From positions 1 to 21,399 of IMG/VR virus record IMGVR_UViG_3300046007_008924: a stretch of DNA of 21,399 nucleotides. The stretch is one strand, 5' to 3'. The notes under the pieces are model-generated. The model saw nothing but the letters and a program-made list of their open reading frames with translations, did no database searches and was not told the DNA's origin. Shown piece after piece: positions 11,133 through 21,399 of this stretch. The translations under genes were made by a program, and so were the position numbers. Numbering within the stretch: position 1 is the stretch's first letter; each line of letters begins with the position of its first letter. Source of the DNA: a virus.

Positions 11133-12413
11133 TTACTTGGTAGCGGTGAGGGGACGTTTCCAAGCGTCAGTCACCTTGCTGCGATAGGCAGCGATGGGGC
11201 TGTCGGTGGAGCGGCCGGCACCTTTCAGCGCGTCACGCAGGGTGGCGGTGCTGTCGGCGCGATCGGAATCGGCGTCCTCTTTGGTTTCGCCGTCGGCATC
11301 CTCGGAGTCGTCGTCCTCGGGGTCGCCATCTTCGTCGCCTTCGGCGTCAGCACGGGCGGCGAGGATGCCTTCAACCACGCCCTGGATGTAGGCGGGTTCG
11401 GCGTCGTCGCGGGGTGCGGAGCCGGTGAGGTTCTCGAAAGCCTGTACGTACAGGGAGGCGTCGTCGATACCGTCGAACTTGAAGTCCTCGGTGAACGCGG
11501 GGGCGAGGCGTTGCAGGGTTGCGAGGCGCTCGGCGACCAGCTGGTCGAGCTCGGCGGTGTCGATGCGGGCGTCGCCGGAGGCAGCGAGCTGCTCCTCGAG
11601 TGCATCGGCACGACCTTCAGCGGCCTCTTTGTCGTAGGCCAGAGCGTCGAAGTCGGCCTGCAGAGTGTCGAGCTTGGTGGCAAGCTCGTCGCGCTCGGTG
11701 GTGAGTGCTTGCAGTTGGCGCCCCATGTCCCGGGAGTAGGACTGGACCGCGCTGGCTGCTTCTGCGGGCAGATCGATCTCCAGGCCGTCGAGTTTGACGG
11801 TTGCCATAACGGGAGATGCAGTTGAACTGGACTGGGGCGCCATTTCGTGCTCGGGGAAGGCGGCTACAGCATCAGCTGCATCCATTCGATCGAGCAAGAG
11901 TCGTACCTCCGGGCCAGCCCGGCCGCGGGGGACAATGGCGATGTGGTTCACCCGGATGTTGCGCTGGACGCCGGCGTACTCTTCGCCCTCGGGGGTGATT
12001 CCGGGGGTGGGGTCAAAGTCGACCTTGTAGCCGGCAGATACCTCGGTGGCATCCTTGCGCTTGATCTTCTCGATGGCGTCCTGGTCGGTGACGACGAGGG
12101 CAACTTCGACAAAACCGTCGTTGTACCGAACTTGGCTACCGGAGTAGCCGACTTGGTACTGCTTGGTGTTGGCGGAGTCGAGAAGAACCGGTGGGTGACC
12201 CCACGTTGCGGGTTTCATGCCGAACGTGGAGAGGGAGTCCGGGTTACTGACCTCCTCAGGGGGTCGGTATTCGCGGACTTGGGAGCCATCAGACCGGCGG
12301 TAGAGCTGCGTACCCGAGCGGGCGGCGCGACACCAAACCCGGAGGTAGCCCTCGGGGGTGGTTTCGCTGCCCGTGATGGGAGCGAAGTCGTACCTGGACA
12401 CTGATGTTTCCAT
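11133..12413 (-). CDS. DUF2213 capsid maturation protease fused to scaffold-like domain
   Basis: This 426-residue protein joins two parts. Residues 1-175 match DUF2213, a capsid maturation protease group: YLRVWCRAARSGTQLYRR, ATWGHPPVLL (His73), ATEVSAGY (Ser126), then RVNHIAIVPRGRAG (His157). By analogy with HK97-type proteases, His73 and Ser126 could be catalytic, but this is inferred. Residues 203-426 are scaffold-like: a coiled coil (about 230-290), a very acidic Asp/Glu run (about 355-390) and a basic end (DAWKRPLTATK). An in-frame ATG at Met203 could give a separate 224-residue scaffold, as lambda Nu3 is nested in C, though no Shine-Dalgarno site is visible before it. The start at 12413 overlaps the divergent XRE frame. 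Confidence 0.87.
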   Translation of the reverse strand: METSVSRYDFAPITGSETTPEGYLRVWCRAARSGTQLYRRSDGSQVREYRPPEEVSNPDSLSTFGMKPATWGHPPVLLDSANTKQYQVGYSGSQVRYNDGFVEVALVVTDQDAIEKIKRKDATEVSAGYKVDFDPTPGITPEGEEYAGVQRNIRVNHIAIVPRGRAGPEVRLLLDRMDAADAVAAFPEHEMAPQSSSTASPVMATVKLDGLEIDLPAEAASAVQSYSRDMGRQLQALTTERDELATKLDTLQADFDALAYDKEAAEGRADALEEQLAASGDARIDTAELDQLVAERLATLQRLAPAFTEDFKFDGIDDASLYVQAFENLTGSAPRDDAEPAYIQGVVEGILAARADAEGDEDGDPEDDDSEDADGETKEDADSDRADSTATLRDALKGAGRSTDSPIAAYRSKVTDAWKRPLTATK

Positions 12414-12691
12414 GCTTAAGAGCTTACCGGTTCTTGTGCGTTTGCTTAGCTTTATGCACAGAGCGGTTACAGCACTTGGCGATTCATAGGCAGTTGACGT
12501 TGTGTCGGCGTATCAGGGCGCTACGGGAATACCATAAGTTTACGCAGTTTGAAGTTGCAGAGAGGTTAGGCGTTAGCCAAGCTGCATATTCGCGGTTGGA
12601 GAAAGGAGAGATAGAGGTGTCAGTTATGAAGCTGATAGCTTTGAGCGAGATCTACGATGTTAGGTTGCAGGAATTAGTAAAAGATATCTAG
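12404..12691 (+). CDS. XRE-family helix-turn-helix regulator, moron-like
   Basis: This plus-strand frame runs against the operon and encodes a Cro/C1-type DNA-binding protein. The helix-turn-helix core spans about residues 35-92: RIRALREYHKFTQFEVAERL, then GVSQAAYSRLEKGEIEVSVM and KLIALSEIYDVRLQELVKDI. Helices 2 and 3 (about Thr47-Arg64) are intact. The first 30 residues look non-native and overlap the divergent protease start, so real translation may begin at a TTG near 12494 or 12500, giving about 64-66 residues; no clear Shine-Dalgarno site settles it. Its stop overlaps the convergent gene's stop on CTAG. Codon use is more AT-rich than in the neighbours. It may regulate the late operon or lysogeny. 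Confidence 0.75.
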   Translation: MFPCLRAYRFLCVCLALCTERLQHLAIHRQLTLCRRIRALREYHKFTQFEVAERLGVSQAAYSRLEKGEIEVSVMKLIALSEIYDVRLQELVKDI

Positions 12692-13988: not shown

Positions 13989-15500
13989 CTACAGCGGAGT
14001 ACCGAAGGGCTGCTTGCGCATGCGGGCAGGGCGGGCCACACGTTTTGGCTTTAGGGCTAGTCGTAGCCGTGGGGTTTTGACACCGAGAGCCTTTGCTACA
14101 TCACTCATTTGAATGAGTCCACGCTCCATGGCTGCTCGCGGCGCAGTGTTGGCGTTGGCAGTCAGGATGCGGCGTGTGAGTCCAGGAATGCGCGGTTGAT
14201 CGGCCCCGCTTACGAAGCGTGAGCGGGGCATCCGGTCGGCAGCCAAGAGTTCGCGCTCGAGAGCGTCGTGGTAACGCTTGACTGCGATCTCGAAGCGCTC
14301 GGTGTTGGCAGCGCCTCCGTAAGTCGATAGTGCCTTTGCCTGCTTCTCAACGTTAGCTAGTACACCTTTGTATTTATTAGTAAAATCAGCACCGCGTGAA
14401 TTAAACCCTAAAAAGTCGGGAAGCCTATTCATATCATACATCAAGTTCATTACACCATTGCGGTAATGCGCTGGTTGCCGTGGATCATGCAGCTCTGTAG
14501 CATAACCAAAGTCTATCAATGCTACTTTTTTACTTTTAGCATTAACCATAAGATTTCCGTTATGAATGTCTCCATGTGCTAAGCCTGCTGTGTGTAACTT
14601 GCGAAACTCACGTGCGATTTTTGTTTTAACAATTAAGGGTGCGTTTGAGGCGTTACCATTAGAGTCACGGTATTCTTTACCTAAAGTCTTGTAGCCACTC
14701 ATATGAGTCAAAATAAGAGTCTGCGACCTTACCTGGCCATCCGCGTCGCTGATTGCTTGCATACGAAGCGGAGCGGGGACGTTGACACCGGCATAGTCGG
14801 CCAGGTCTAGGCGGCGGAACTCGCTAGCAACGTCGTCCTCGTCGCCATTGCGGAAGAGCTTGATGCCGTACTTCTCAGAAGGATGGACAAAGTAAGTGCC
14901 GAAAGCTCCTGCGCCTGCTTGGCAGCGGGGTTGATTGACGTAGCCTCCTGCCGATGCAAGACCCTGGCTGCCGGTAGACACCAAGGCGCGGGCGTGCATA
15001 GCCCCGGTGGAAAGGCCGTACCAATCGGTGTCGGCGTCAAACTTCCCCGGGGCTTGGATCTTTCCCAGACCACCGCCACATTCAGCAGCGCGGCGACGCT
15101 GGTTGATCTGCTCCTGGACGTCCCACTCTTGGCCCTCCGCGATGGCTTCGTCGACGATGCGTTGAGCTTCGTCCTCGGTGAGTTTGGGGTGTTTTAGTTT
15201 GTTGACAGGGTCGTTATCCCAGGCCTCCTTGGTCCTGTACTTACTGGCGATGGCAGCACCTCCTGCTACTACACCTGCGACAAGCGCGACTTTAGCAGCA
15301 GTCTTAAGCGTTTCTGCGGTTATACCGCCTGCTTGTTTTGTGCACTTATGCGTGCGAGGAATATGCGACTCGCCGCAGGGCTTTCCCTTGCCGCCCTTAA
15401 GGGCGTCGATTCGCGCTAGGCCGAGGACTTTCCCGGCGTGAGAGCTCCATCGCGGCGGCTGGTCTTGCCGGAGCAGCGCCACTTTGCCCGCGACAAGCAC
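13989..15500 (-). CDS. Protein kinase-like virion cassette protein with Cys motif and membrane helix
   Basis: As annotated, this frame has 503 residues. The motif CGESHIPRTHKC (Cys42-Cys53) is followed by a hydrophobic helix at about 64-86 (AAKVALVAGVVAGGAAIA). A kinase-like domain then carries all core residues: Lys214 (YGIKLFR), Glu227 (ASEFRRL), a hinge-like LILTHMSGY, catalytic loop HGDIHNGN (Asp311, Asn316) and D-F-G at Asp330. The loop resembles the RIO/Kdo/aminoglycoside kinase superfamily more than Ser/Thr kinases. The C-terminus is very basic. The GTG at 15500, and another at 15482, lie inside the upstream gene without a Shine-Dalgarno site; a -1 frameshift from that gene may be the true route. 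DNA at 14340-14720, covering the catalytic loop, is far more AT-rich (33% GC at 14521-14580). Confidence 0.82.
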   Translation of the reverse strand: MLVAGKVALLRQDQPPRWSSHAGKVLGLARIDALKGGKGKPCGESHIPRTHKCTKQAGGITAETLKTAAKVALVAGVVAGGAAIASKYRTKEAWDNDPVNKLKHPKLTEDEAQRIVDEAIAEGQEWDVQEQINQRRRAAECGGGLGKIQAPGKFDADTDWYGLSTGAMHARALVSTGSQGLASAGGYVNQPRCQAGAGAFGTYFVHPSEKYGIKLFRNGDEDDVASEFRRLDLADYAGVNVPAPLRMQAISDADGQVRSQTLILTHMSGYKTLGKEYRDSNGNASNAPLIVKTKIAREFRKLHTAGLAHGDIHNGNLMVNAKSKKVALIDFGYATELHDPRQPAHYRNGVMNLMYDMNRLPDFLGFNSRGADFTNKYKGVLANVEKQAKALSTYGGAANTERFEIAVKRYHDALERELLAADRMPRSRFVSGADQPRIPGLTRRILTANANTAPRAAMERGLIQMSDVAKALGVKTPRLRLALKPKRVARPARMRKQPFGTPL

Positions 15501-16132
15501 AGCGGGGTGTTGCGTTCAGCGCCGGCGCAGTTGTAGCCCTCGGATTTCATGTCGCCGAAGCTGCGGGCGCAGTAGCGGTCGCCTTTGTCGGTGCCCGGGG
15601 CGATGGTGTAGCCCTTGGCTCCGTAGCGGATGCGGTTCTTGCGGCCCGTTTCGGGGTTGGTCACCACCTTGGTGTACTTCTTGCCGTCCTCGGTGTCGAA
15701 ACCGGCGGCCCAGACGTCGGTTTTGGAGCTCACCATGACAGGGGCGCCGGTGCGCTCTTTGCATGGGTCTTCGCGGCGCTTGCGCGCGACGAGCCGGCGG
15801 CGCTCCGCAGGAGAAAGGGCCAGAGCTTTGGCGGAAGGTAGGCACTTTGGCTTACCTTCGCCCTCGGTGCGGTCACCGCAAGGGCCGAGGATGCGGCCGC
15901 TGCTGTTCATGCGGACCCACTTTTCTTTGAACCACTTGTCGAGGGCGTCATTACGGAAGGTTCCGCCGCGCTTTTTGTATTCGCGGACCATCCAAGCGTT
16001 GGCATATGCGCTCGGGTAGATCTTGAACTTGCGCTTGGCCTCTGCTTTTACTGCGGCGTGCAGCTTTTTGTCAGCAAAAATGACCCCGCGGGCGTCGGCG
16101 CGGATGCGCAGCGTTGCGGGGGTGAGGTTCAT
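15416..16132 (-). CDS. DUF5872-like protein fused to Cys-rich phage domain, internal ADGF-type motif
   Basis: This 238-residue protein starts MNLTPATLRIRADARG like its neighbours but lacks the Cys motif. Residues 25-75 (AYANAWMVREYKKRGGTFRN, DKWFKEKWVRM) resemble DUF5872, followed by GPCGDRTEGEGKPKCLPSAK and a basic A-R-K-R-R-E-D-P helix, a combination I associate with phages and large viruses. TDVWAAGF (Asp139-Phe145) is the motif that ends sister proteins, here internal. A second, Cys-containing part follows: RIRYGAKGYTIAPGTDKGDR, YCARSFGDMKSEGYNC and LSRAKWRCSGK. The protein therefore looks like a complete cassette unit fused to another domain. Its start overlaps the upstream stop (ATGA). 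A slippery GGGAAAG lies four codons before its stop. The biochemical role is unknown. Confidence 0.85.
   Translation of the reverse strand: MNLTPATLRIRADARGVIFADKKLHAAVKAEAKRKFKIYPSAYANAWMVREYKKRGGTFRNDALDKWFKEKWVRMNSSGRILGPCGDRTEGEGKPKCLPSAKALALSPAERRRLVARKRREDPCKERTGAPVMVSSKTDVWAAGFDTEDGKKYTKVVTNPETGRKNRIRYGAKGYTIAPGTDKGDRYCARSFGDMKSEGYNCAGAERNTPLCLSRAKWRCSGKTSRRDGALTPGKSSA
15428..15434 (-). other. Candidate -1 frameshift site GGGAAAG linking the 238-aa and kinase frames
   Basis: Zero-frame minus-strand codons are CCG GGA AAG TCC, an exact X XXY YYZ heptamer (G GGA AAG, the sequence used by lambda G-T). A -1 slip gives GGG AAA GTC CTC, which is the kinase frame. The zero frame stops 10 bases later (TAG 15418-15416). 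A 5-bp stem (CGCCC-TTAA-GGGCG, 15405-15392) lies 22 bases downstream, farther than usual. The kinase frame is open only from 15515, so the overlap is short and contains the site. Confidence 0.5.
15696..15714 (-). repeat. ADGF-motif coding repeat, copy inside the 238-aa gene
   Basis: Nineteen bases (tcgaaaccggcggcccaga on the plus strand) are identical to 16136-16154. Both encode W-A-A-G-F, here in mid-protein and there at the C-terminus of the 169-aa protein, suggesting that this gene arose by fusion or recombination at the motif. Confidence 0.75.
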
Positions 16133-16638
16133 GGCTCGAAACCGGCGGCCCAGATGGAGTCAGAGCGCTTCATCTTGGCAGCGCCCTTGCGGGTGGTCTT
16201 GCTGCCCTTCTTGTAGCCCATCTTGTTGAGGGTGCCGTAGATGTAAGCGGCGGCGCGTTCACCTTTAAGGCCGCGAGCGGCGGCTTGCTTGGCGAGCTCG
16301 GCTTCCATGGCGGCGACTTTGGTGCCGCGGGGGTCCATGCGGGACTCAGTGGTACCGGCATCCCGGCGTTTCCCCCGCATATCCTCGAGTGCTAGCTCGA
16401 GTTCATTGCGAGCTAACGCGTCACGAGCCGGGAACAGACCCATAGCACTCAGTTTTTGTTTCTCTTCTGAGGTTAAGCGCAGGTTGCGGCTACTACCCGC
16501 CTTTCCCCACTTGCGTGCGCTAGGACGTGAGGTTGGTTCAACTTTAGTTGCTGGACCTTTAGTGCACTTTTCGCCCTCGGAGATAGCTCCTTTACCACAT
16601 TTGAGGTCGAGGCGGAGGGAGGCGTGGGTCAGGGTCAT
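16129..16638 (-). CDS. Cassette protein with Cys motif and C-terminal WAAGF motif, no membrane helix
   Basis: This 169-residue, strongly basic protein opens MTLTHASLRLDLKCGKGAIS and completes the motif with EGEKC (Cys14-Cys25), nearly identical to the 272-aa neighbour. Unlike the other carriers it has no hydrophobic helix. The middle is helical (LTSEEKQKLSAMGLFPARDA), and near the end AAARGLKGERAAAYIYGTLN and KMGYKKGSKTTRKG form a Lys/Arg-rich segment that could bind DNA or membrane. It ends KRSDSIWAAGFEP. It starts three bases after the upstream stop and its stop overlaps the next ATG (ATGA). I recognise no catalytic fold. A DNA-associated internal head protein is one possibility. Confidence 0.82.
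   Translation of the reverse strand: MTLTHASLRLDLKCGKGAISEGEKCTKGPATKVEPTSRPSARKWGKAGSSRNLRLTSEEKQKLSAMGLFPARDALARNELELALEDMRGKRRDAGTTESRMDPRGTKVAAMEAELAKQAAARGLKGERAAAYIYGTLNKMGYKKGSKTTRKGAAKMKRSDSIWAAGFEP
16136..16154 (-). repeat. ADGF-motif coding repeat, copy at the end of the 169-aa gene
   Basis: This is the partner of 15696-15714: 19 identical bases encoding the W-A-A-G-F end of the 169-aa protein. Confidence 0.75.
16562..16584 (-). repeat. Cys-motif coding repeat, copy A (169-aa gene)
   Basis: Twenty-three bases are identical in three genes (here, 17879-17901 and 18287-18309). They encode I-S-E-G-E-K-C-T at the end of the shared 12-residue Cys motif. The bases on either side diverge more, so identity here suggests recent duplication or gene conversion. 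Confidence 0.85.
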
Positions 16639-16641
16639 GGC

Positions 16642-17133
16642 TCAGATAGCAAGTTGATCGAGCTCGGGGGAGAAACCGTCGGCGTACACAGAGTCGCGCC
16701 GCTTGGATGCGGCGTTTCGGCCTCGGGTGACAAACCCTTTGATGTCGGTGCCGTAGCCCTTAGCCAGGGTGCTGAGGTTGCGGCCCATGCCTTCACCAGT
16801 TGCTGCGACGTTAGCGGCGTTTTTTGCTGCTCCAGACCAGTTGCCTCGAGCAACGTTGCCCACGCCAAAGCCAGCCTGCAATGCGGGCTCAACTACTGCG
16901 CGGGCGGCTGCCCTCATCCCGGAACGGGGATGCAGAAAAGCAGTTCCTACGATGGCGGCGCCAGTCAAAGCCGCAGCTCCAGCCGCGAGCTTGACGGGCT
17001 TGTTCCAAGAGGCGCGACACTGGTGATCACGGGGAATGCAAGCATTGCCACAGGCCTTAGAAGTTGAACCGCAGTTGAGCTTTTTGTTGCCTACGAAAAC
17101 ATCGGTGCGAAGAGTGGTGGGGGTCAAGGTCAT
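16642..17133 (-). CDS. Cassette protein with Cys motif, membrane helix and C-terminal ADGF motif
   Basis: This 163-residue protein starts MTLTPTTLRTDVFVGNKKLN and has four cysteines (21, 28, 32, 39). Cys28-Cys39 is the shared 12-residue motif in the form CGNACIPRDHQC. A hydrophobic helix follows at about 47-67 (VKLAAGAAALTGAAIVGTAF), then an Ala/Gly/Asn-rich, probably amphipathic stretch (about 72-130) that might associate with membranes. The end is KRRDSVYADGF followed by SPELDQLAI. It has no recognisable catalytic domain and may be a minimal form of the cassette: motif, helix and tail. Start and stop each lie three bases from the neighbouring genes. Confidence 0.83.
   Translation of the reverse strand: MTLTPTTLRTDVFVGNKKLNCGSTSKACGNACIPRDHQCRASWNKPVKLAAGAAALTGAAIVGTAFLHPRSGMRAAARAVVEPALQAGFGVGNVARGNWSGAAKNAANVAATGEGMGRNLSTLAKGYGTDIKGFVTRGRNAASKRRDSVYADGFSPELDQLAI
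16672..16686 (-). repeat. ADGF-motif coding repeat at the end of the 163-aa gene
   Basis: Fifteen bases (gaaaccgtcggcgta on the plus strand) are identical to 17167-17181 and encode Y-A-D-G-F at the C-termini of the 163- and 272-aa proteins. Confidence 0.6.
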
Positions 17134-17136
17134 GGC

Positions 17137-17955
17137 TTACAACGCGATGGTGTCCCAGTCGATGTCGAAACCGTCGGCGTAAATCGAATCGAGCTTGCCG
17201 CGGCGCCGCAGGATCTCTTGGTAGGCGGCGTTGATCTTCTGGGCTTTGCGAACGTCACCACCAACGTCAGGGTGGTTTTCTCGCATCAGCTGTAGCCACT
17301 TCTTTTTGATCTCTGCTTCGGATGCATTTTCAGAAATGCCGAGATCTTTGAAAGGATCTTTTACTGCTTTGTTAGTTCCGACGTTGCGACTTCCTGAGGA
17401 TGCGTTTTGCTTGGCTCTATCACGCGCGGAGTTCCACTGGCGCTTGTAGTCCTCGGCGCCCATAGCCCATTCACGCTCGGCGGCAGCCAAGTTGGTACGC
17501 AAAGAACGACCTGCCGTGATGCTGCCACCACCTAAATACATGAGTGCGCTGCCAGCAGCAAGGCTTCCGGCCTGGCGCTTATTGGGTTTTTTGGCGTACT
17601 CGTTGGCGAGTAGCCCGGCTCCGGCAATGCCTAAGCCAACACCTGCAATCTCGGCTCCGAGAGCCATACCGCGAGCCTTCTTGAAGGCCGCTTTACCTTG
17701 AGCAATACTTTCATCAGGAGTGGCCTTCGCTCCCAGAGGTGTCGAAAGGATGCGTTGGCTCGCGCGAGCTTTTGCAGCACCAAATGCAACGCCACCTAGA
17801 ACAGCAGCGCCTCCCACTCCGAGAGCAACGTTGCGGATGGTGTTGTTGTTGGTTTTAGCAGGCGTAGCGGGGCCCTTGGTGCACTTTTCGCCCTCGGAGA
17901 TCGAGCCGCGGCCGCACTTGAGGTCAGAGCGGATGCTGGATGGGGTGAGCACCAT
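17137..17955 (-). CDS. J-domain (DnaJ-like) cassette protein with Cys motif and membrane helices
   Basis: This 272-residue protein opens MVLTPSSIRSDLKCGRGSIS and completes the motif with EGEKC (Cys14-Cys25). Three hydrophobic Gly/Ala-rich segments follow at about 39-63, 94-120 and 125-150. A J-domain occupies about 199-253: DPFKDLGISENASEAEIKKK, then WLQLMRENHPDVGG with the essential His-Pro-Asp at 228-230, and INAAYQEIL. J-domains stimulate the ATPase of Hsp70 (DnaK). No DnaK is encoded here, so a host partner is likely if the domain is active. It ends LDSIYADGFDIDWDTIAL, the shared tail. It lies three bases from both neighbours. The family parts are clear; packaging into the virion is an inference from position. 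Confidence 0.87.
   Translation of the reverse strand: MVLTPSSIRSDLKCGRGSISEGEKCTKGPATPAKTNNNTIRNVALGVGGAAVLGGVAFGAAKARASQRILSTPLGAKATPDESIAQGKAAFKKARGMALGAEIAGVGLGIAGAGLLANEYAKKPNKRQAGSLAAGSALMYLGGGSITAGRSLRTNLAAAEREWAMGAEDYKRQWNSARDRAKQNASSGSRNVGTNKAVKDPFKDLGISENASEAEIKKKWLQLMRENHPDVGGDVRKAQKINAAYQEILRRRGKLDSIYADGFDIDWDTIAL
17167..17181 (-). repeat. ADGF-motif coding repeat at the end of the J-domain gene
   Basis: This is the partner of 16672-16686: 15 identical bases encoding Y-A-D-G-F at the protein's C-terminus. Confidence 0.6.
17879..17901 (-). repeat. Cys-motif coding repeat, copy B (J-domain gene)
   Basis: This is the second of three identical 23-base copies. Here it lies about 55 bases after the start codon, and the LTP-x3-R-x-D block comes before it. 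Confidence 0.85.
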
Positions 17956-17958
17956 GGT

Positions 17959-18726
17959 TCAGATGTCGAAGGAGCCGGAGTCAGCGGAGAAGCCATCTGC
18001 CCAAGCGTCACGGACAGAGGGGCGCTTGGTTTTTTTCCATGCAGCTTCTCTGGCTTTCATAACAGCAGCCAACTGAGTCTTCTTTGAAGGTGCTGGAGCT
18101 CCTGCTTTTGCGCGTGCTGCAGGATCCAGTGCGCGGCGCAGGTCAGTGTTGCGCTTAGCTGTTTGCTGCATGTAAGCAGCACCCCCAATCAGAGCCGCTG
18201 CGCCTGCAATCTTTGCGGCGGTCTTGAGACCGCGAACTTTGGAGCCACCGCGCTGCTGCGGCTGTACTCGCTGAGCTGGCCCCTTGGTGCACTTTTCGCC
18301 CTCGGAGATGCTGCCTTTGCCACACTTCAGGTCGAGGCGCTCAGCGGTGTCGAGGCGGGCTCGGATGTAGGTAGGGCTGCGGTCTTGGATGCCGAGCTCG
18401 CAGGCGTCGAGGTACTCGAGGGGTGTCAGTGAGTCGCCGCGCTTGCGCATGGAGCCGCAGTTGCCATCGCACTTGGCGCCCTTCTTGCCCTTACAGCCGC
18501 ACTCGGCATCCATGGGCTTTTTGCCGTAGCCGTCGGCAGCGGGCTTGGTGTGTTTGGCGCCCTTAGCGCTGCGCTTACGGCTGTGGCTGGCGGCCATGTC
18601 CATTTCCTCCTCCTCTTCTTCCTCTTCGGGGGACTCCATGTTGCGGGCGCGAGCTGCCATGGCGCGGCCTTCGCGGATGCCTTCTTCGTAGGCCTCGGAT
18701 TTAGCGCGGCGTGTGGTGGCGGGCAT
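17959..18726 (-). CDS. Cassette protein with acidic/Cys-rich N-terminus, Cys motif, membrane helix and ADGF tail
   Basis: This 255-residue protein is the first gene of the cassette. Its N-terminus is unlike the others: a charged helix, a run of eight Glu (about 34-41), a basic stretch, then DAECGCKGKKGAKCDGNCG (five Cys, possibly metal-binding, about 73-91). R-G-D-S-L-T-P-L-E-Y-L follows at about 96-106. The shared motif is CGKGSISEGEKC (Cys135-Cys146), with a hydrophobic helix at about 166-184 (AAKIAGAAALIGGAAY) and a basic region. It ends VRDAWADGFSADSGSFDI. The ATG at 18726 has no strong Shine-Dalgarno site; an 88-base divergent gap lies upstream. I recognise no enzyme domain. The Cys clusters and acidic run suggest binding rather than catalysis. 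Confidence 0.82.
   Translation of the reverse strand: MPATTRRAKSEAYEEGIREGRAMAARARNMESPEEEEEEEEMDMAASHSRKRSAKGAKHTKPAADGYGKKPMDAECGCKGKKGAKCDGNCGSMRKRGDSLTPLEYLDACELGIQDRSPTYIRARLDTAERLDLKCGKGSISEGEKCTKGPAQRVQPQQRGGSKVRGLKTAAKIAGAAALIGGAAYMQQTAKRNTDLRRALDPAARAKAGAPAPSKKTQLAAVMKAREAAWKKTKRPSVRDAWADGFSADSGSFDI
18287..18309 (-). repeat. Cys-motif coding repeat, copy C (255-aa gene)
   Basis: This is the third identical 23-base copy. Here it lies in the middle of the protein, because this gene has about 120 extra N-terminal codons. Confidence 0.85.
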
Positions 18727-18814
18727 GGCGTAGAGCCCCGAGTATTGCTTCCCACAGCGTAGCTGCCTTGTGCTATAGGGCTCGATAGGCTGAGAGCATC
18801 TATCTGTTCTAGTT
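18727..18814. promoter_or_regulatory. Divergent intergenic region, possible promoter
   Basis: These 88 bases separate the minus-strand cassette from the plus-strand membrane gene. A TGCTATAGG at 18771-18779 resembles an extended -10 element for the plus strand, but no good -35 lies at the usual distance. No clear operator repeat or terminator is seen. Promoter assignment is weak. Confidence 0.2.
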
Positions 18815-19054
18815 GTGAACTTGCTTCGCTTAGTTGCTGGGAGTGGTGCGGCCTCGGGATTGCTGATTGGTCAGCTCGTTTTTGCTGCTTTCTTTGTCGG
18901 ATCTTGTGAGATCCCAAATGTGCTCAACAGGGGTAGCGCTAATGCCTGTCTCGATCGTTGGATGACTACAGCTGCTCTGTTCTTTCCTTCAGGTGTAGCG
19001 GGTGCTGGTACAGCAGTTGCGCTGGATAAAGCAAAAAGGCGCTTTCTTGGCTGA
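18815..19054 (+). CDS. Small two-helix membrane protein, moron-like; holin-like candidate
   Basis: This 79-residue plus-strand frame fills an otherwise empty gap in the operon. Two hydrophobic segments, about 9-30 (SGAASGLLIGQLVFAAFFVG) and 51-69 (TTAALFFPSGVAGAGTAVAL), flank a short loop with two Cys (CEIPNVLNRGSANACLDRW), and the end is basic (DKAKRRFLG). Small size, two membrane helices and a basic tail are holin-like, but many small phage membrane proteins share them. The GTG at 18815 lacks a Shine-Dalgarno site and later TTG codons are possible. Its stop directly abuts the convergent minor head gene's stop. Plus-strand orientation suggests its own promoter. Confidence 0.55.
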   Translation: MNLLRLVAGSGAASGLLIGQLVFAAFFVGSCEIPNVLNRGSANACLDRWMTTAALFFPSGVAGAGTAVALDKAKRRFLG

Positions 19055-19918
19055 TCAGTCGAAGGGCTGAGGCGCGAACTGCTCGAAGACTGCAGCTTTG
19101 TTGAGGTCGGCCGGGCCGACGGTGGCTACGCGGGATACTTCTTCGCGGTGAGTGCGGGGAAGCGCGGCGTACTCGGGGTCGATCGCGGCGATCTCGGGGT
19201 CCCAGGGGGCTAGGTAGCAACGGCAGCGGGGGTGTGCGGGTGCGTTTGTACTAGCGCGCTTGTAGATGCGGCCGGCCCGGGCGTTGCAGATGGGGCAAGT
19301 GCGGTCATCGCTGGTGGCGTACCACATGACGAGGTCGATGCCGTTGGCTGCGTAGTACTGGTTGCTGGCAGCGTTGTATGCGCGTAGCGACTCGGTGCGG
19401 GCGATGACGTCAGCGCGAGACTTCACCACGCCGAGGCGCAGACGCAGGTCGTTGGTGATGGCGTCGGTAGGGCGGCCTTCAGCGATGCCTTGGGCGACGA
19501 GATCGGTGGCCGTGGTTGCGAAGGCTTCGCCATGGCGGCGGAGGTAGCCGCGGGCTTGGGCTGCAGCAGCCACGGTGGCTTCGATCGGAATGGAGACGTT
19601 GATCAGGCGGCGCTGGGAGCCGGAGTCGCGGAGAAGCTCTCGGGCGACGGTGACGCCTTTGCCTTCGGAGCTGCGGAGTAGGGAGCGCAGCACGCGGTCA
19701 TAGGCGTCGGTTCGGTCGGGGCGGAAAGCGGGAACGAGCTGACGGAACTCCTGCAGTAGGGCGACGTTGCGGTCGGCTGCGGGGGCTCCGCTGCGGAGCT
19801 GGATGCGGGTGCGCCGCAGTAGGCGGTTGAAGCTGCTGTCGAGGATGCGGTTGAGCTGGGCGATGGTGACGTCCTCGGAGCGACGCAGGGCGGCGTTGTA
19901 GCGCTCAAGGAGTTGCAT
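19055..19918 (-). CDS. Minor head / head morphogenesis protein (Mu gpF, SPP1 gp7 type)
   Basis: This 287-residue protein has a helical N-terminus (LERYNAALRRSEDVTIAQLN) and a clear C-terminal Phage_Mu_F domain: ADVIARTESLRAYNAASNQY, WYATSDDRTCPICNARAG (Cys208, Cys211) and APAHPRCRCYLAPW (His229, Cys232, Cys234), the usual zinc-type signature. Members of this family are minor capsid proteins near the portal that act in head assembly and DNA exit or ejection. The ATG at 19918 overlaps the upstream gene by 14 bases. In other phages this domain is often fused to toxin-like enzymes; here candidate effectors are separate genes on both sides. Confidence 0.92.
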   Translation of the reverse strand: MQLLERYNAALRRSEDVTIAQLNRILDSSFNRLLRRTRIQLRSGAPAADRNVALLQEFRQLVPAFRPDRTDAYDRVLRSLLRSSEGKGVTVARELLRDSGSQRRLINVSIPIEATVAAAAQARGYLRRHGEAFATTATDLVAQGIAEGRPTDAITNDLRLRLGVVKSRADVIARTESLRAYNAASNQYYAANGIDLVMWYATSDDRTCPICNARAGRIYKRASTNAPAHPRCRCYLAPWDPEIAAIDPEYAALPRTHREEVSRVATVGPADLNKAAVFEQFAPQPFD

Positions 19919-21399
19919 CAGCCCTGTCGTTGCGGATGAGGTCGGCGATCTGCTCCACCTGCGAATCCTGCATGCGCATGAATTTGCCTCCGCGCTTCAT
20001 TGCGAATAGCCGTTCGTCAGAGGACAGTGCTGGGCGGAACCCGTATTTTTCGTAGACAGAACGGCGTTTTGCACCTTTGGTGTCATTAGAGTAGGGAATA
20101 GCATAGATAATTGAGTTGTCGGGTAGTTGGTCTACCTGCTCCTGGAACATCTTTTTGACGGTGGAGGCTACACCACGGGCGTTGCGGGACGCTGCTTCTG
20201 ACTTTGCGTCAAATTCTCCATCTACTCGGAACTGAGTTGAGTAAGTGCGCGCACCTCCGATGCTTTCCTGCGGTTTTGTTGAGTAAATAAGAAGTGTTTC
20301 CCCGACGGAGCCTGTGCTGAGCAAGCTACCGTCTTTCATTTTCCAGTTGGTGAAGTTATCTTTTGTGTTTACTGAAGTGATTTCACCTCCTTTGGACTTC
20401 AGAGCCATGTAAGCAGCACTTGCTTTAGCGTCTCCAACCAGCCCACGCACCGACTTTTGGAACTGTTTAGGTATGCGGTTTATGCCAGCGTCTATTTCCG
20501 CGCTCGACAACGATTTAATCACCCGCTTGCTGATCGCGGGTACCACTACCTCTTTGTTTTTGTATGCAATCGCTCCACCGGCAGCCAAAGCAGCACCAGC
20601 ACCGATAGCAGCCGCGATAGCAACACGGTTGCGCGTTTTATTATCGCTCTCGGGGGGTTGTTTTTCTTGGCTGGCTACTCCTGCGCCCTTACGGCACTCA
20701 TGTGCCTTTGGGATGTGTGAGGCTCCGCAAGGCTTACCCTGCAGGTCCTGCCGGACAGCCAGATAAGTAGTGGCACGGATCAGACCAGGGGGCAACGCGT
20801 CACCCCTCTGGCGGCGGGCTATTTCAGCGCGGGCGGCACGGTAGGAGGCCTCGAGGCTCATATCTTCGCCGCGGCCTTTAGCAGCCTCGCGCAGGGAGCG
20901 GGCAAGGTCGGTGATCTGCGCTTGGGCGCTGCGGCGGCCGCGGGGTGGGGTGGTAGCTGCAGGAGCTGCGCCTGTCGCAGCGCGACCCGCTGTCTGTACC
21001 GGAACCAGGCGCTCAAAGCCGTTCTGCTGCAAGTAGCGGGTGGCGTCGCTCAGGCTGGTGATGTCGCGACCAGCGAGCTCGGAGGCGGCAACCCGGGTTT
21101 CGCGATCCGAGAGTGTGAACGTGCTGCTCTTGCTGACCTGGCGGGCGAAGTACTCCTTGGAGATGGCGTCGCTGAGGCCCTGGCCGATGCGTCCGGTGAC
21201 GTTCGCGGGCTTTGCCAGGCGCTGTGCTAGGTAGCGGGAGTGGCCGATGCGGGCGCTGTTCATCAGGTCGCCGTAGCCAGCGCGGCGCTGCTCCGTGGGC
21301 ATAGCGGCGCCCGGGGTTTGGCGCACTTCGTCGGCGATGCGGCCGAAGTACTGATCGAACCCGTCACGGGTCTCTCGGTACAGGCGATTGGCGAGTCCC
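19905..21399 (-). CDS. Large virion-associated protein, 5' end beyond window, with Cys motif, membrane helix and possible GNAT-like end
   Basis: The frame is open to the right edge, so this is the C-terminal 497 residues of a longer protein; a GTG at 21326 is in frame but the frame continues past it (GLANRLYRETRDGFDQYFGR). The first 180 residues or so are charged and helical. CGASHIPKAHEC, the shared motif, lies about 225 residues into the visible part, followed by a hydrophobic helix (RVAIAAAIGAGAALAAGGAI). The last 130 residues resemble an acetyltransferase: TLLIYSTKP and YSTQFRVDGEF strands, a long helix, SIIYAIPYSND and RRSVYEKYGFRP, the Y-x-K-x-G-F signature near the end of GNAT folds. 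A portal protein could be the missing N-terminal part given gene order, but nothing seen proves it. DNA at 20040-20660 is AT-richer than its flanks. Confidence 0.75.
   Translation of the reverse strand, partial: GLANRLYRETRDGFDQYFGRIADEVRQTPGAAMPTEQRRAGYGDLMNSARIGHSRYLAQRLAKPANVTGRIGQGLSDAISKEYFARQVSKSSTFTLSDRETRVAASELAGRDITSLSDATRYLQQNGFERLVPVQTAGRAATGAAPAATTPPRGRRSAQAQITDLARSLREAAKGRGEDMSLEASYRAARAEIARRQRGDALPPGLIRATTYLAVRQDLQGKPCGASHIPKAHECRKGAGVASQEKQPPESDNKTRNRVAIAAAIGAGAALAAGGAIAYKNKEVVVPAISKRVIKSLSSAEIDAGINRIPKQFQKSVRGLVGDAKASAAYMALKSKGGEITSVNTKDNFTNWKMKDGSLLSTGSVGETLLIYSTKPQESIGGARTYSTQFRVDGEFDAKSEAASRNARGVASTVKKMFQEQVDQLPDNSIIYAIPYSNDTKGAKRRSVYEKYGFRPALSSDERLFAMKRGGKFMRMQDSQVEQIADLIRNDRADATP

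Follow-up and report, generated by a model that had tools for sequence, protein, structure and literature searches.

The head-gene cassette and its Cys-bracketed tag

The stretch of DNA analyzed here, termed the window, comprises the 21,399 nucleotides at positions 1 to 21,399 of IMG/VR record IMGVR_UViG_3300046007_008924, from an uncultivated tailed phage, and contains a head-gene cassette in which six proteins share a 12-residue element bracketed by cysteines, termed the tag. The genes run in the order edge protein, Mu-F minor head protein, p255, p272, p163, p169, an untagged DUF5872 protein, a kinase, p421, and a DUF2213 protease (Table 1), bearing out the first-pass annotation, made from the sequence alone, which placed the tagged genes around the minor head protein and ahead of the capsid protease. 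The edge protein of the window is a fragment, and its relative of 890 amino acids (aa) at locus L001 has a further tag (CGGRCIPPNWDC) near the N terminus. Among named phages the major capsid protein is closest to that of Synechococcus phage S-CBS4 (55.6% identity over 99%), and we infer a cyanobacterial host.

The six 12-residue motifs described earlier are all present, each of the named proteins having a single match to the pattern CG.{3}I[PS].{2}[HE].C; the four others scanned (minor head protein, DUF5872 protein, p421, and protease) have none. A looser regular expression applied to the six-frame translation of the window returns the same six places and no others, and none of 2000 shuffling rounds, run on eight of these proteins, produced the motif.

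Table 1. Coordinates of the cassette features in the window, with the evidence or a remark for each
Feature	Positions	Strand	Evidence or remark
Edge protein	19905..21398	(-)	5' end cut by window; C-terminal 497 aa; 890 aa in L001
Edge protein tag CGASHIPKAHEC	20694..20729	(-)	Motif scan
Edge protein hydrophobic Ala/Gly-rich segment after tag	20568..20618	(-)	Mean hydropathy over 17 residues 1.88
Edge protein GNAT-like acetyltransferase fold	19974..20384	(-)	AlphaFold2 model and VIA alignment
Minor head protein (Phage_Mu_F), untagged	19055..19918	(-)	PF04233, E 2e-16; phrog_115
p255: conserved N-terminal part, tag, locus-variable body	17959..18726	(-)	Locus comparison
p255 tag CGKGSISEGEKC	18289..18324	(-)	Motif scan
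p255 hydrophobic segment after tag	18169..18219	(-)	Mean hydropathy over 17 residues 1.34
p272: tag, hydrophobic segment, J-domain, C-terminal tail	17137..17955	(-)	PF00226, E 4.6e-8
p272 J-domain	~17218-17355	(-)	HPD present
p272 C-terminal tail	~17140-17190	(-)	
p272 tag CGRGSISEGEKC	17881..17916	(-)	Motif scan
p272 hydrophobic segment after tag	17779..17829	(-)	Mean hydropathy over 17 residues 1.88
p163: four-Cys tag, Ala/Gly helix, tail	16642..17133	(-)	Tail DSVYADGFSPELDQLAI at ~16645-16695
p163 tag CGNACIPRDHQC	17017..17052	(-)	Extra Cys 21 at 17071-17073
p163 hydrophobic segment after tag	16933..16983	(-)	Mean hydropathy over 17 residues 1.71
p169: tag, tail DSIWAAGFEP	16129..16638	(-)	Without hydrophobic segment
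p169 tag CGKGAISEGEKC	16564..16599	(-)	Motif scan
DUF5872 protein, untagged, 238 aa	15416..16132	(-)	PF19197, E 1.5e-11
Slippery heptamer G GGA AAG	15428..15434	(-)	-1 shift leads to tagged kinase frame; predicted fusion 714 aa
Kinase ORF (503 aa): tag, hydrophobic segment, kinase domain	13989..15500	(-)	Open reading frame (ORF) list and Pfam
APH/Kdo/ABC1/RIO-like kinase domain	~14442-14831	(-)	Pfam; HGDIHNGN and DFG
Kinase tag CGESHIPRTHKC	15342..15377	(-)	Motif scan
Kinase hydrophobic segment after tag	15249..15299	(-)	Mean hydropathy over 17 residues 1.92
DUF2213 head-maturation protease, after cassette and p421	11133..12413	(-)	PF09979, E 5e-42; phrog_530

Viral contigs were scanned with p272, and the best 80 of 92 confirmed stretches were taken as loci; these hold 340 ORF matches of the loose pattern CG.{3}I.{5}C. 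Read only as far as the locus fragments extend, a common gene order recurs at the 25 loci compared (edge protein, minor head protein, p255, variable tagged genes, sometimes p421, protease, DUF2190, and major capsid protein), within which the tagged genes vary in number, order, and fusion. The confinement of the tag to head genes was measured on 12 whole records (40.6-72.0 kb, 665.6 kb in total), which were picked for carrying the cassette and so do not speak to prevalence. Each has one same-strand tag cluster of 3.8-8.7 kb, with the minor head protein and protease genes at the cluster in 12 of 12, and 62 of the 63 loose-pattern matches fall in the head cassette, the 63rd being solitary on the opposite strand of one record; the reversed-pattern control gives 3 matches. 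The tight GEKC pattern, which defines one class of tags, occurs in at least 119 stretches of viral contigs, a lower bound on its prevalence there, and in 1 of 84,980 species' genomes. A predominance of the motif in unrelated bacterial proteins, an outcome that the first-pass annotation had named as refuting its proposal, was sought in these and the cyanobacterial scans below and not found. Relatives among named phages were found neither with a composite tag query (E up to 10) nor with the 890-aa edge protein (E up to 1), and an edge-protein profile run against genome contigs gave 27 pattern stretches, among which no relative was confirmed.

The tag corpus contains 390 contexts with 148 distinct 12-mers. 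It includes overlapping loci of the same contigs and is deduplicated by 36-residue context, so that related sequences in it are not independent, and it omits 15 loci judged to be chance or cellular matches (L263-L266, L268-L271, L273, L274, L281, L284-L286, and L289). Residues C1, G2, I6, and C12 are set by the regular expression and their invariance is no result; tags with other residues at these positions exist and are uncounted, for example CGKVCLPKGAVC in gp045 of the cyanophage CL131. The GEKC-class tag is conserved as a protein and not as DNA identity. In 73 within-locus pairs of this class, to which the codon comparison is limited and which come partly from near-identical loci and are not all independent, the 12 codons differ by a mean of 3.9 synonymous and 0.9 nonsynonymous changes. 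This excess of synonymous differences indicates that the protein is under selection and that most copies are not fresh duplications. It bears directly on an account in which the cassette consists of moron or accessory genes and the tag is a recombination or homing seam with no role in the virion. The bodies do diverge past the tag boundary while the tag stays, and similar short stretches repeat along the cassette, as a seam would predict; yet only 3 of the 73 pairs lack a synonymous difference, and a second pair of cysteines, described below, is retained or lost together, which leaves a seam very unlikely.

Cysteine pairs, hydrophobic segment, and C-terminal tail

A subset of tags has a further cysteine at position 5, and in 87 of 87 such tags a cysteine is also present upstream of C1, with 4-7 residues between the two (measured on one example per distinct 12-mer). 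Conversely, 302 of the 303 tags without C5 have no cysteine within the ten upstream residues, and in the exception three residues separate the cysteine from C1. This four-Cys form is seen in about seven contexts, namely the edge N terminus, the second or third edge tag, p163, the cyanophage PaV-LD, CL131, and two Thermosynechococcus contigs. In CL131 gp048, which has five tags, both extra cysteines are present in four tags and neither in the fifth. The coding matches among the omitted loci (L266, and L268 with its duplicates L273 and L274) fit the same rule, the others having none in the ORFs kept, as do all 7 tags of L295, a later addition. One candidate for an orthologous site switching between the two-Cys and four-Cys forms, located before the GNAT domain, was rejected as the four-Cys relatives also keep a two-Cys tag 43 residues upstream.

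The first-pass annotation had offered a disulfide, a bound metal, or a processing site as the function of the paired cysteines. The two cysteines of the second pair are gained or lost together, C1 and C12 being retained either way, which suggests a second disulfide, as a four-ligand metal site would not survive such a loss. A metal site common to all forms of the 12-mer is disfavored and was rejected because positions 5 and 10 vary; C5 and the upstream Cys occur together in 87 of 390 contexts, so that no constant set of four ligands is present. A more flexible version, a mini-finger in which Zn is bound by the four-Cys form and positions 5 and 10 supply His or Glu as ligands in the two-Cys forms, draws on the occurrence of His at position 5 in 36 and at position 10 in 38 of the 148 12-mers, and on the AlphaFold2 (AF2) model of p163, which at low confidence shows the tag as one hairpin. 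Against this, other tags have A, F, S, G, Y, or W at position 5 and E, K, W, R, A, Y, or Q at position 10, leaving no constant ligand set, and what is lost is always precisely one Cys pair, both members together; the mini-finger is improbable. The p163 model has an overall predicted local distance difference test (pLDDT) score of 58.5, with the weak hairpin at residues 25-34 at a pLDDT of ~65.

A hydrophobic helix within about 7-25 residues of the tag had been noted in five of the six window proteins, and five do have a hydrophobic 17-residue segment, beginning 11-25 residues past the last Cys. The best mean Kyte-Doolittle hydropathy of these segments is 1.34-1.92; p169 is without one (0.26). 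With the helix criterion set as a 17-residue window of mean hydropathy at least 1.4 within 60 residues of the tag, a helix follows in 105 of 179 nonredundant downstream contexts compared with 26 of 870 control windows of the same proteins. The difference persists at cut-offs of 1.2 (122/179 against 37/870) and 1.6 (82/179 against 13/870). At the 1.6 cut-off the segments are 39% Ala and 17% Gly, with a median start 21 residues after the last Cys. Tag classes differ in how often the helix is present, with 38 of 43 for His5 tags, 37 of 79 for GEKC, 9 of 18 for four-Cys tags other than those at the edge N terminus, and 21 of 33 for the others.

A second shared element, absent from the earlier description, lies at the opposite end of the small proteins. 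p272, p163, and p169 share a C-terminal tail of the form DSIYADGF, and p255 ends in a looser RDAWADGF form. Among ORFs of at least 100 aa, the consensus DS[IV][YW]AxGF is present in 107 of 260 tagged ORFs compared with 23 of 1819 untagged ones, and in complete tagged ORFs 96 of 104 matches start exactly 17 or 10 residues before the end. With redundant loci counted, the tail is at the C-terminal end of 13/13 p163, 22/26 p169, 13/15 p272, and 49/71 p255 tagged ORFs; edge proteins (0/49), tagged kinases (0/13), and tagged DUF5872 proteins (0/42) all lack it there. Its restriction to small tagged proteins without a large carrier domain makes the DSxYAxGF tail a better candidate for a head address than the tag, and judged by this distribution it is the likelier of the two.

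Effector-like bodies and their carriers

The tag stands before many unrelated bodies. With tag and tail removed, single-linkage clustering of the 111 distinct bodies at the 80 loci (taken from complete tagged ORFs no longer than 560 aa, with bodies of at least 60 aa, blastp E 1e-3, and links of at least 40 aa) gives 21 clusters. Pfam matches at E up to 0.01 in 86 representative tagged proteins are to kinase (14), J-domain (8), DUF5872 (5), ART (1), and lipase/hydrolase (1) families, and in 28 edge-type proteins to LRAT (13), NlpC/P60 (12), and kinase (4); many proteins in these two sets have no Pfam match. In the window both the J-domain of p272 and the kinase, named in the first-pass annotation, are Pfam matches. 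p255, p163, and p169 match no family at E up to 1, and for the edge protein the single match is far under its cut-off. The acetyltransferase guessed for the edge protein is supported at the level of the fold. The AF2 model of this region (model residues 125-261) has a pLDDT mostly above 85, and VIA aligns it with 5us1_J at Z 9.8 and a root mean square deviation of 3.2 over 122 residues, nearly all rows listed being acetyltransferases. Foldseek itself gives weak matches to the model (best E 0.013 in the PDB and 4.2e-5 in BFVD), and the GNAT assignment comes from the VIA alignments of Foldseek's own candidates. The usual GNAT acetyl-CoA binding motif, Q/RxxGxG/A, is not plain in the A4 consensus.

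The same tags join virion proteins to effector-like domains in the single cellular genome with the tight GEKC pattern, a Thermosynechococcus metagenome-assembled genome (G013). One protein on a phage-like contig of G013 has a lambda-type portal at residues 41-389, a tag at 549, and an ART domain at 630-775; a second has a portal_3 domain at 59-431, a tag at 708, a GNAT domain at 795-879, and an InPase domain at 935-1010. Two further phage-like proteins of G013 combine DnaJ with a below-cut-off LRAT match and have two to four tags. Over the whole of G013 the loose pattern gives 34 matches compared with 10 for the reversed pattern, so that an isolated match has little meaning, and only ORF tags on contigs C216, C257, C390, C400, and C407 were counted. 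The sole relative found for the portal-ART region is one IMG/VR record at 100% identity, and no viral relative was found for the tagged protein of L255. More than one disparate domain per polypeptide is thus seen in portal-GNAT-InPase and portal-ART proteins, and also in an edge protein with GNAT-like and kinase domains (L036 and L167, the same record); L255 and L257 have DnaJ with an LRAT match under the cut-off. The window itself has one recognized domain per ORF, unless the DUF5872 and kinase genes are joined by frameshifting.

Such a junction is suggested by the sequence at the end of the DUF5872 gene. The protein ends in TPGKSSA, and its PGK codons contain G GGA AAG, a classic -1 slippery heptamer of the kind used by the lambda genes G and GT; in the window the -1 frame from this point reaches the kinase tag. 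A heptamer of the form X XXY YYZ in the 0 frame is present at 17 of 17 loci with the same DUF5872 end (15 distinct ORFs; chance from codon usage 0.012 per site), and the -1 frame is open in all. No ATG, GTG, or TTG codon lies between heptamer and tag in 10 of the 11 loci examined, and none lies there in the window. At L013, L014, and L057 the listed kinase ORF begins past the tag and the -1 frame takes the tag in, and at L010 DUF5872 and kinase form a single reading frame. The RNA fold of the 83 nucleotides downstream has a z of -1.14, with 26 of 200 shuffles equally good. Probably, therefore, the kinase is made as a minor DUF5872-tag-kinase fusion by -1 frameshifting, the alternative being that it starts at a GTG inside the overlap (15500 or 15482). 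The predicted fusion would place the tag once more at a junction between carrier and effector. DUF5872 occurs in this phage group either alone or fused behind tags; in the literature one paper naming it was found, on an algal virus.

The junctions invite a reading in which the tag is a processing site, with a head or host protease cutting at or beside it so that carrier and effector separate. The cassette is followed by a gene for a DUF2213 protease, and the ISE/G of GEKC-class tags is similar to the I/L-x-E rule of T4-type cleavage. The residues at positions 7-11 vary, however, so that a processing site inside the 12-mer is disfavored as a constant feature; Glu is at position 8 in 18 of 148 12-mers and a constant cleavage motif was rejected for the family as a whole. 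The fixed positions, although set by the regular expression, look structural, and processing as the function of the tag is unlikely.

Tags are also clustered in 2 of 7 named cyanophages checked. PaV-LD and CL131 have 7 tags each, all between the portal and tape measure genes, with two more pattern matches in CL131 on the other strand and outside the ORFs kept. Within the longest non-overlapping ORFs of Cr-LKS4, Nodularia phage kac65v151, Pf-WMP4, and Mic1 there are no matches (2, 2, 1, and 1 elsewhere, respectively), and S-CBS4 has none at all. Two tagged PaV-LD proteins are labeled by the depositors as "virion structural protein" (ORF081R) and "minor virion protein" (ORF085R), on grounds the record does not state, the remaining five tagged ORFs being labeled "hypothetical protein." CL131 gp048 (L294:34006-39441) is an 1811-aa protein whose gene immediately precedes that for the tape measure; several regions of it have alpha/beta-hydrolase matches, and four of its five tags are followed by a hydrophobic segment. 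A search for its relatives gave one locus; L295 holds a four-tag relative and a second protein with two tags, and among named phages the CL131 tag unit matches CL131 alone. Purified CL131 particles contain 23 structural proteins by liquid chromatography-tandem mass spectrometry (PMC6293099).

The four-Cys pattern matches 9 of 386 cyanobacterial genomes (1 with the reversed control). Coding matches occur only on the phage contigs of G013 and in exported-looking Cys-rich proteins of G190 and G253; the other six loci have no match in their longest non-overlapping ORFs. The exported-looking proteins (L268:1270-2166 and L266:1432-1788), one of which has tandem repeats, share the core CGxxCIx5C and an upstream Cys with the phage tags. 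They differ in being cellular, with export-like N termini by inspection and no effector domain seen, and convergence is possible.

Address or delivery

The proposal that the cassette encodes a packaged set of host-modifying proteins addressed by a common tag can be divided in two. The family of head-cassette proteins with unrelated effector-like domains and one conserved tag stands, and the common tag as an address is weakened, because as many as five tags occur in one polypeptide (gp048) and tags lie inside portal-effector fusions. As an address, the tag and helix would bind scaffold, protease, or portal and so load the procapsid, much as in phage T4, in which the internal proteins and Alt, unrelated to one another, are packaged by means of a short N-terminal capsid-targeting sequence that is cleaved at a conserved site by the head protease. 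The near-complete confinement of matches to the head cassette in the 12 long records and the position of the tag near the N terminus in many stand-alone proteins fit an address. Unlike the T4 sequence, the tag is often internal, repeatable, and Cys-based, and no constant I-x-E lies within the 12-mer. Portals are virion proteins in any case and would not need an address to enter the head, and in the small stand-alone proteins the C-terminal tail competes for this role, so that an address in the tag itself is fairly unlikely.

A tag that is repeated and placed between virion portal and effector is easier to reconcile with a role exercised once per effector, when it is ejected or crosses a membrane, than with an address to the head. 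The reading preferred here, tentatively and with a little less than even confidence, is that the cassette encodes modular effectors that travel with the virion and are passed on to the host, with carriers or tail providing placement and the tag and helix delivering each effector by way of disulfide formation and reduction. Effector-like domains (J-domain, kinase, and GNAT-like in the window; LRAT/NlpC, ART, and lipase elsewhere) are preceded by the same portable module, composed of the 12-residue tag itself, with one or two Cys pairs, and, in most cases, a hydrophobic Ala/Gly-rich segment of at least 17 residues. The tagged proteins would ride in the phage head, placed there by large carriers (the edge N terminus, the portal, or DUF5872 through frameshifting) or by the DSxYAxGF tail. 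After lysis the tag may oxidize to give a small disulfide element in the released virion. During or after ejection the tag and helix could then act once per effector, docking or threading at the host membrane or envelope, and reduction in the host cytoplasm would free the effector. A sharper form of this proposal is a two-signal cargo system, in which the tail directs small proteins to the head and a redox-gated Cys tag with a membrane helix before each effector directs passage into the host, so that effectors may be added, swapped, or placed in tandem, with dosage set by ribosomal frameshifting; in this full form it is possible but doubtful.

Several observations weigh against the preferred delivery reading. 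At the 1.4 cut-off the helix is absent from p169, from one of the five gp048 units, and from about 40% of tag contexts, all 6 nonredundant contexts of edge N-terminal tags among them. The Cys-pair rule rests on some seven tag contexts, and among them no orthologous site that switches Cys form was found. Cysteines are not depleted outside the tags (0.49%, compared with 0.55% in five untagged window proteins). The low-confidence p163 hairpin places C28 near C32 and not C39, and in the edge model the tag is unstructured with a confidence of ~40. The tail expression also matches the 23 untagged ORFs, and p255 is a partial exception to its distribution, having the tail despite a conserved N-terminal part. 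Finally, the tagless S-CBS4 shows that the tag is not needed for head building.

In kind, the cassette belongs with polyvalent proteins, MuF toxins, the Dar proteins of phage P1, and the T4 internal proteins, and what sets it apart, relative to the passages cited below, is a Cys tag that recurs while the bodies behind it change. The polyvalent proteins that phages and conjugative elements encode are described by Iyer et al. (2017, PMC5512222) as carrying several unrelated effector domains per polypeptide, encoded among late virion genes and predicted to be injected, and a portal-InPase fusion is named there. Unrelated effector domains on one chain and a portal-InPase fusion are found here too, likewise encoded among late packaging and virion genes in the window and in all 12 records. 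In contrast, the units here are marked by the Cys tag and are often separate small proteins; no such tag is mentioned in the passages of that paper concerned, and the word cysteine does not occur in its main text. MuF polymorphic toxins of temperate phages have a constant virion part and exchangeable C-terminal effectors (Jamet et al. 2017, PMC5576092), and a constant virion part with changing effectors is also seen here. They differ in that the window MuF-type protein is untagged and has no Pfam match above cut-off other than PF04233 and no effector domain, the effectors being on other carriers; the words cysteine, linker, and cyanobacteria are absent from the main text of PMC5576092. DarA of phage P1 is tethered to the inner capsid, the head protease trims it, and the head-borne Dar proteins are co-ejected with the DNA, but their role is in anti-restriction and no common short tag is mentioned in the sections of PMC12810830 (PLoS Pathog 2026) concerned.

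In the open-licence literature on DUF5872, on capsid signals, and on effectors that phages package or inject, the matching entries do not name this tag, and its place before unrelated domains among head genes looks like an undescribed way of loading or delivering swappable host-altering proteins in cyanophage-related phages. Effectors borne in virions are known, but few phages have a known sequence rule by which a protein becomes deliverable. With a short recognizable module, effectors could be mined from cyanophages, whose early takeover of photosynthetic hosts is poorly understood. Two isolated tag-bearing phages, PaV-LD and CL131, are available for tests, and for CL131 the virion proteome is already published.

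Other features of the region are recorded here as observations. Past its matched domain the DUF2213 protease continues into a long acidic C-terminal region, which looks like a fused scaffold. In S-CBS4 the slot from the portal region to the protease (L081:9916-12282) is occupied by glycosyltransferases and a methyltransferase, with no tagged genes. In the window a small gene resembling a helix-turn-helix (HTH) regulator, by inspection or annotation, is located at 12404-12691 (+), immediately upstream of the capsid protease gene and on the other strand. HTH-regulator-like genes have this same opposite-strand position in S-CBS4 (NC_016766.1, 13837-14127) and CL131 (MG209611.1, 34126-34437), and one lies upstream of the capsid region on a Thermosynechococcus phage contig (L257:3999-4232), a site beside capsid genes that is unusual for a regulator and common across these lineages.

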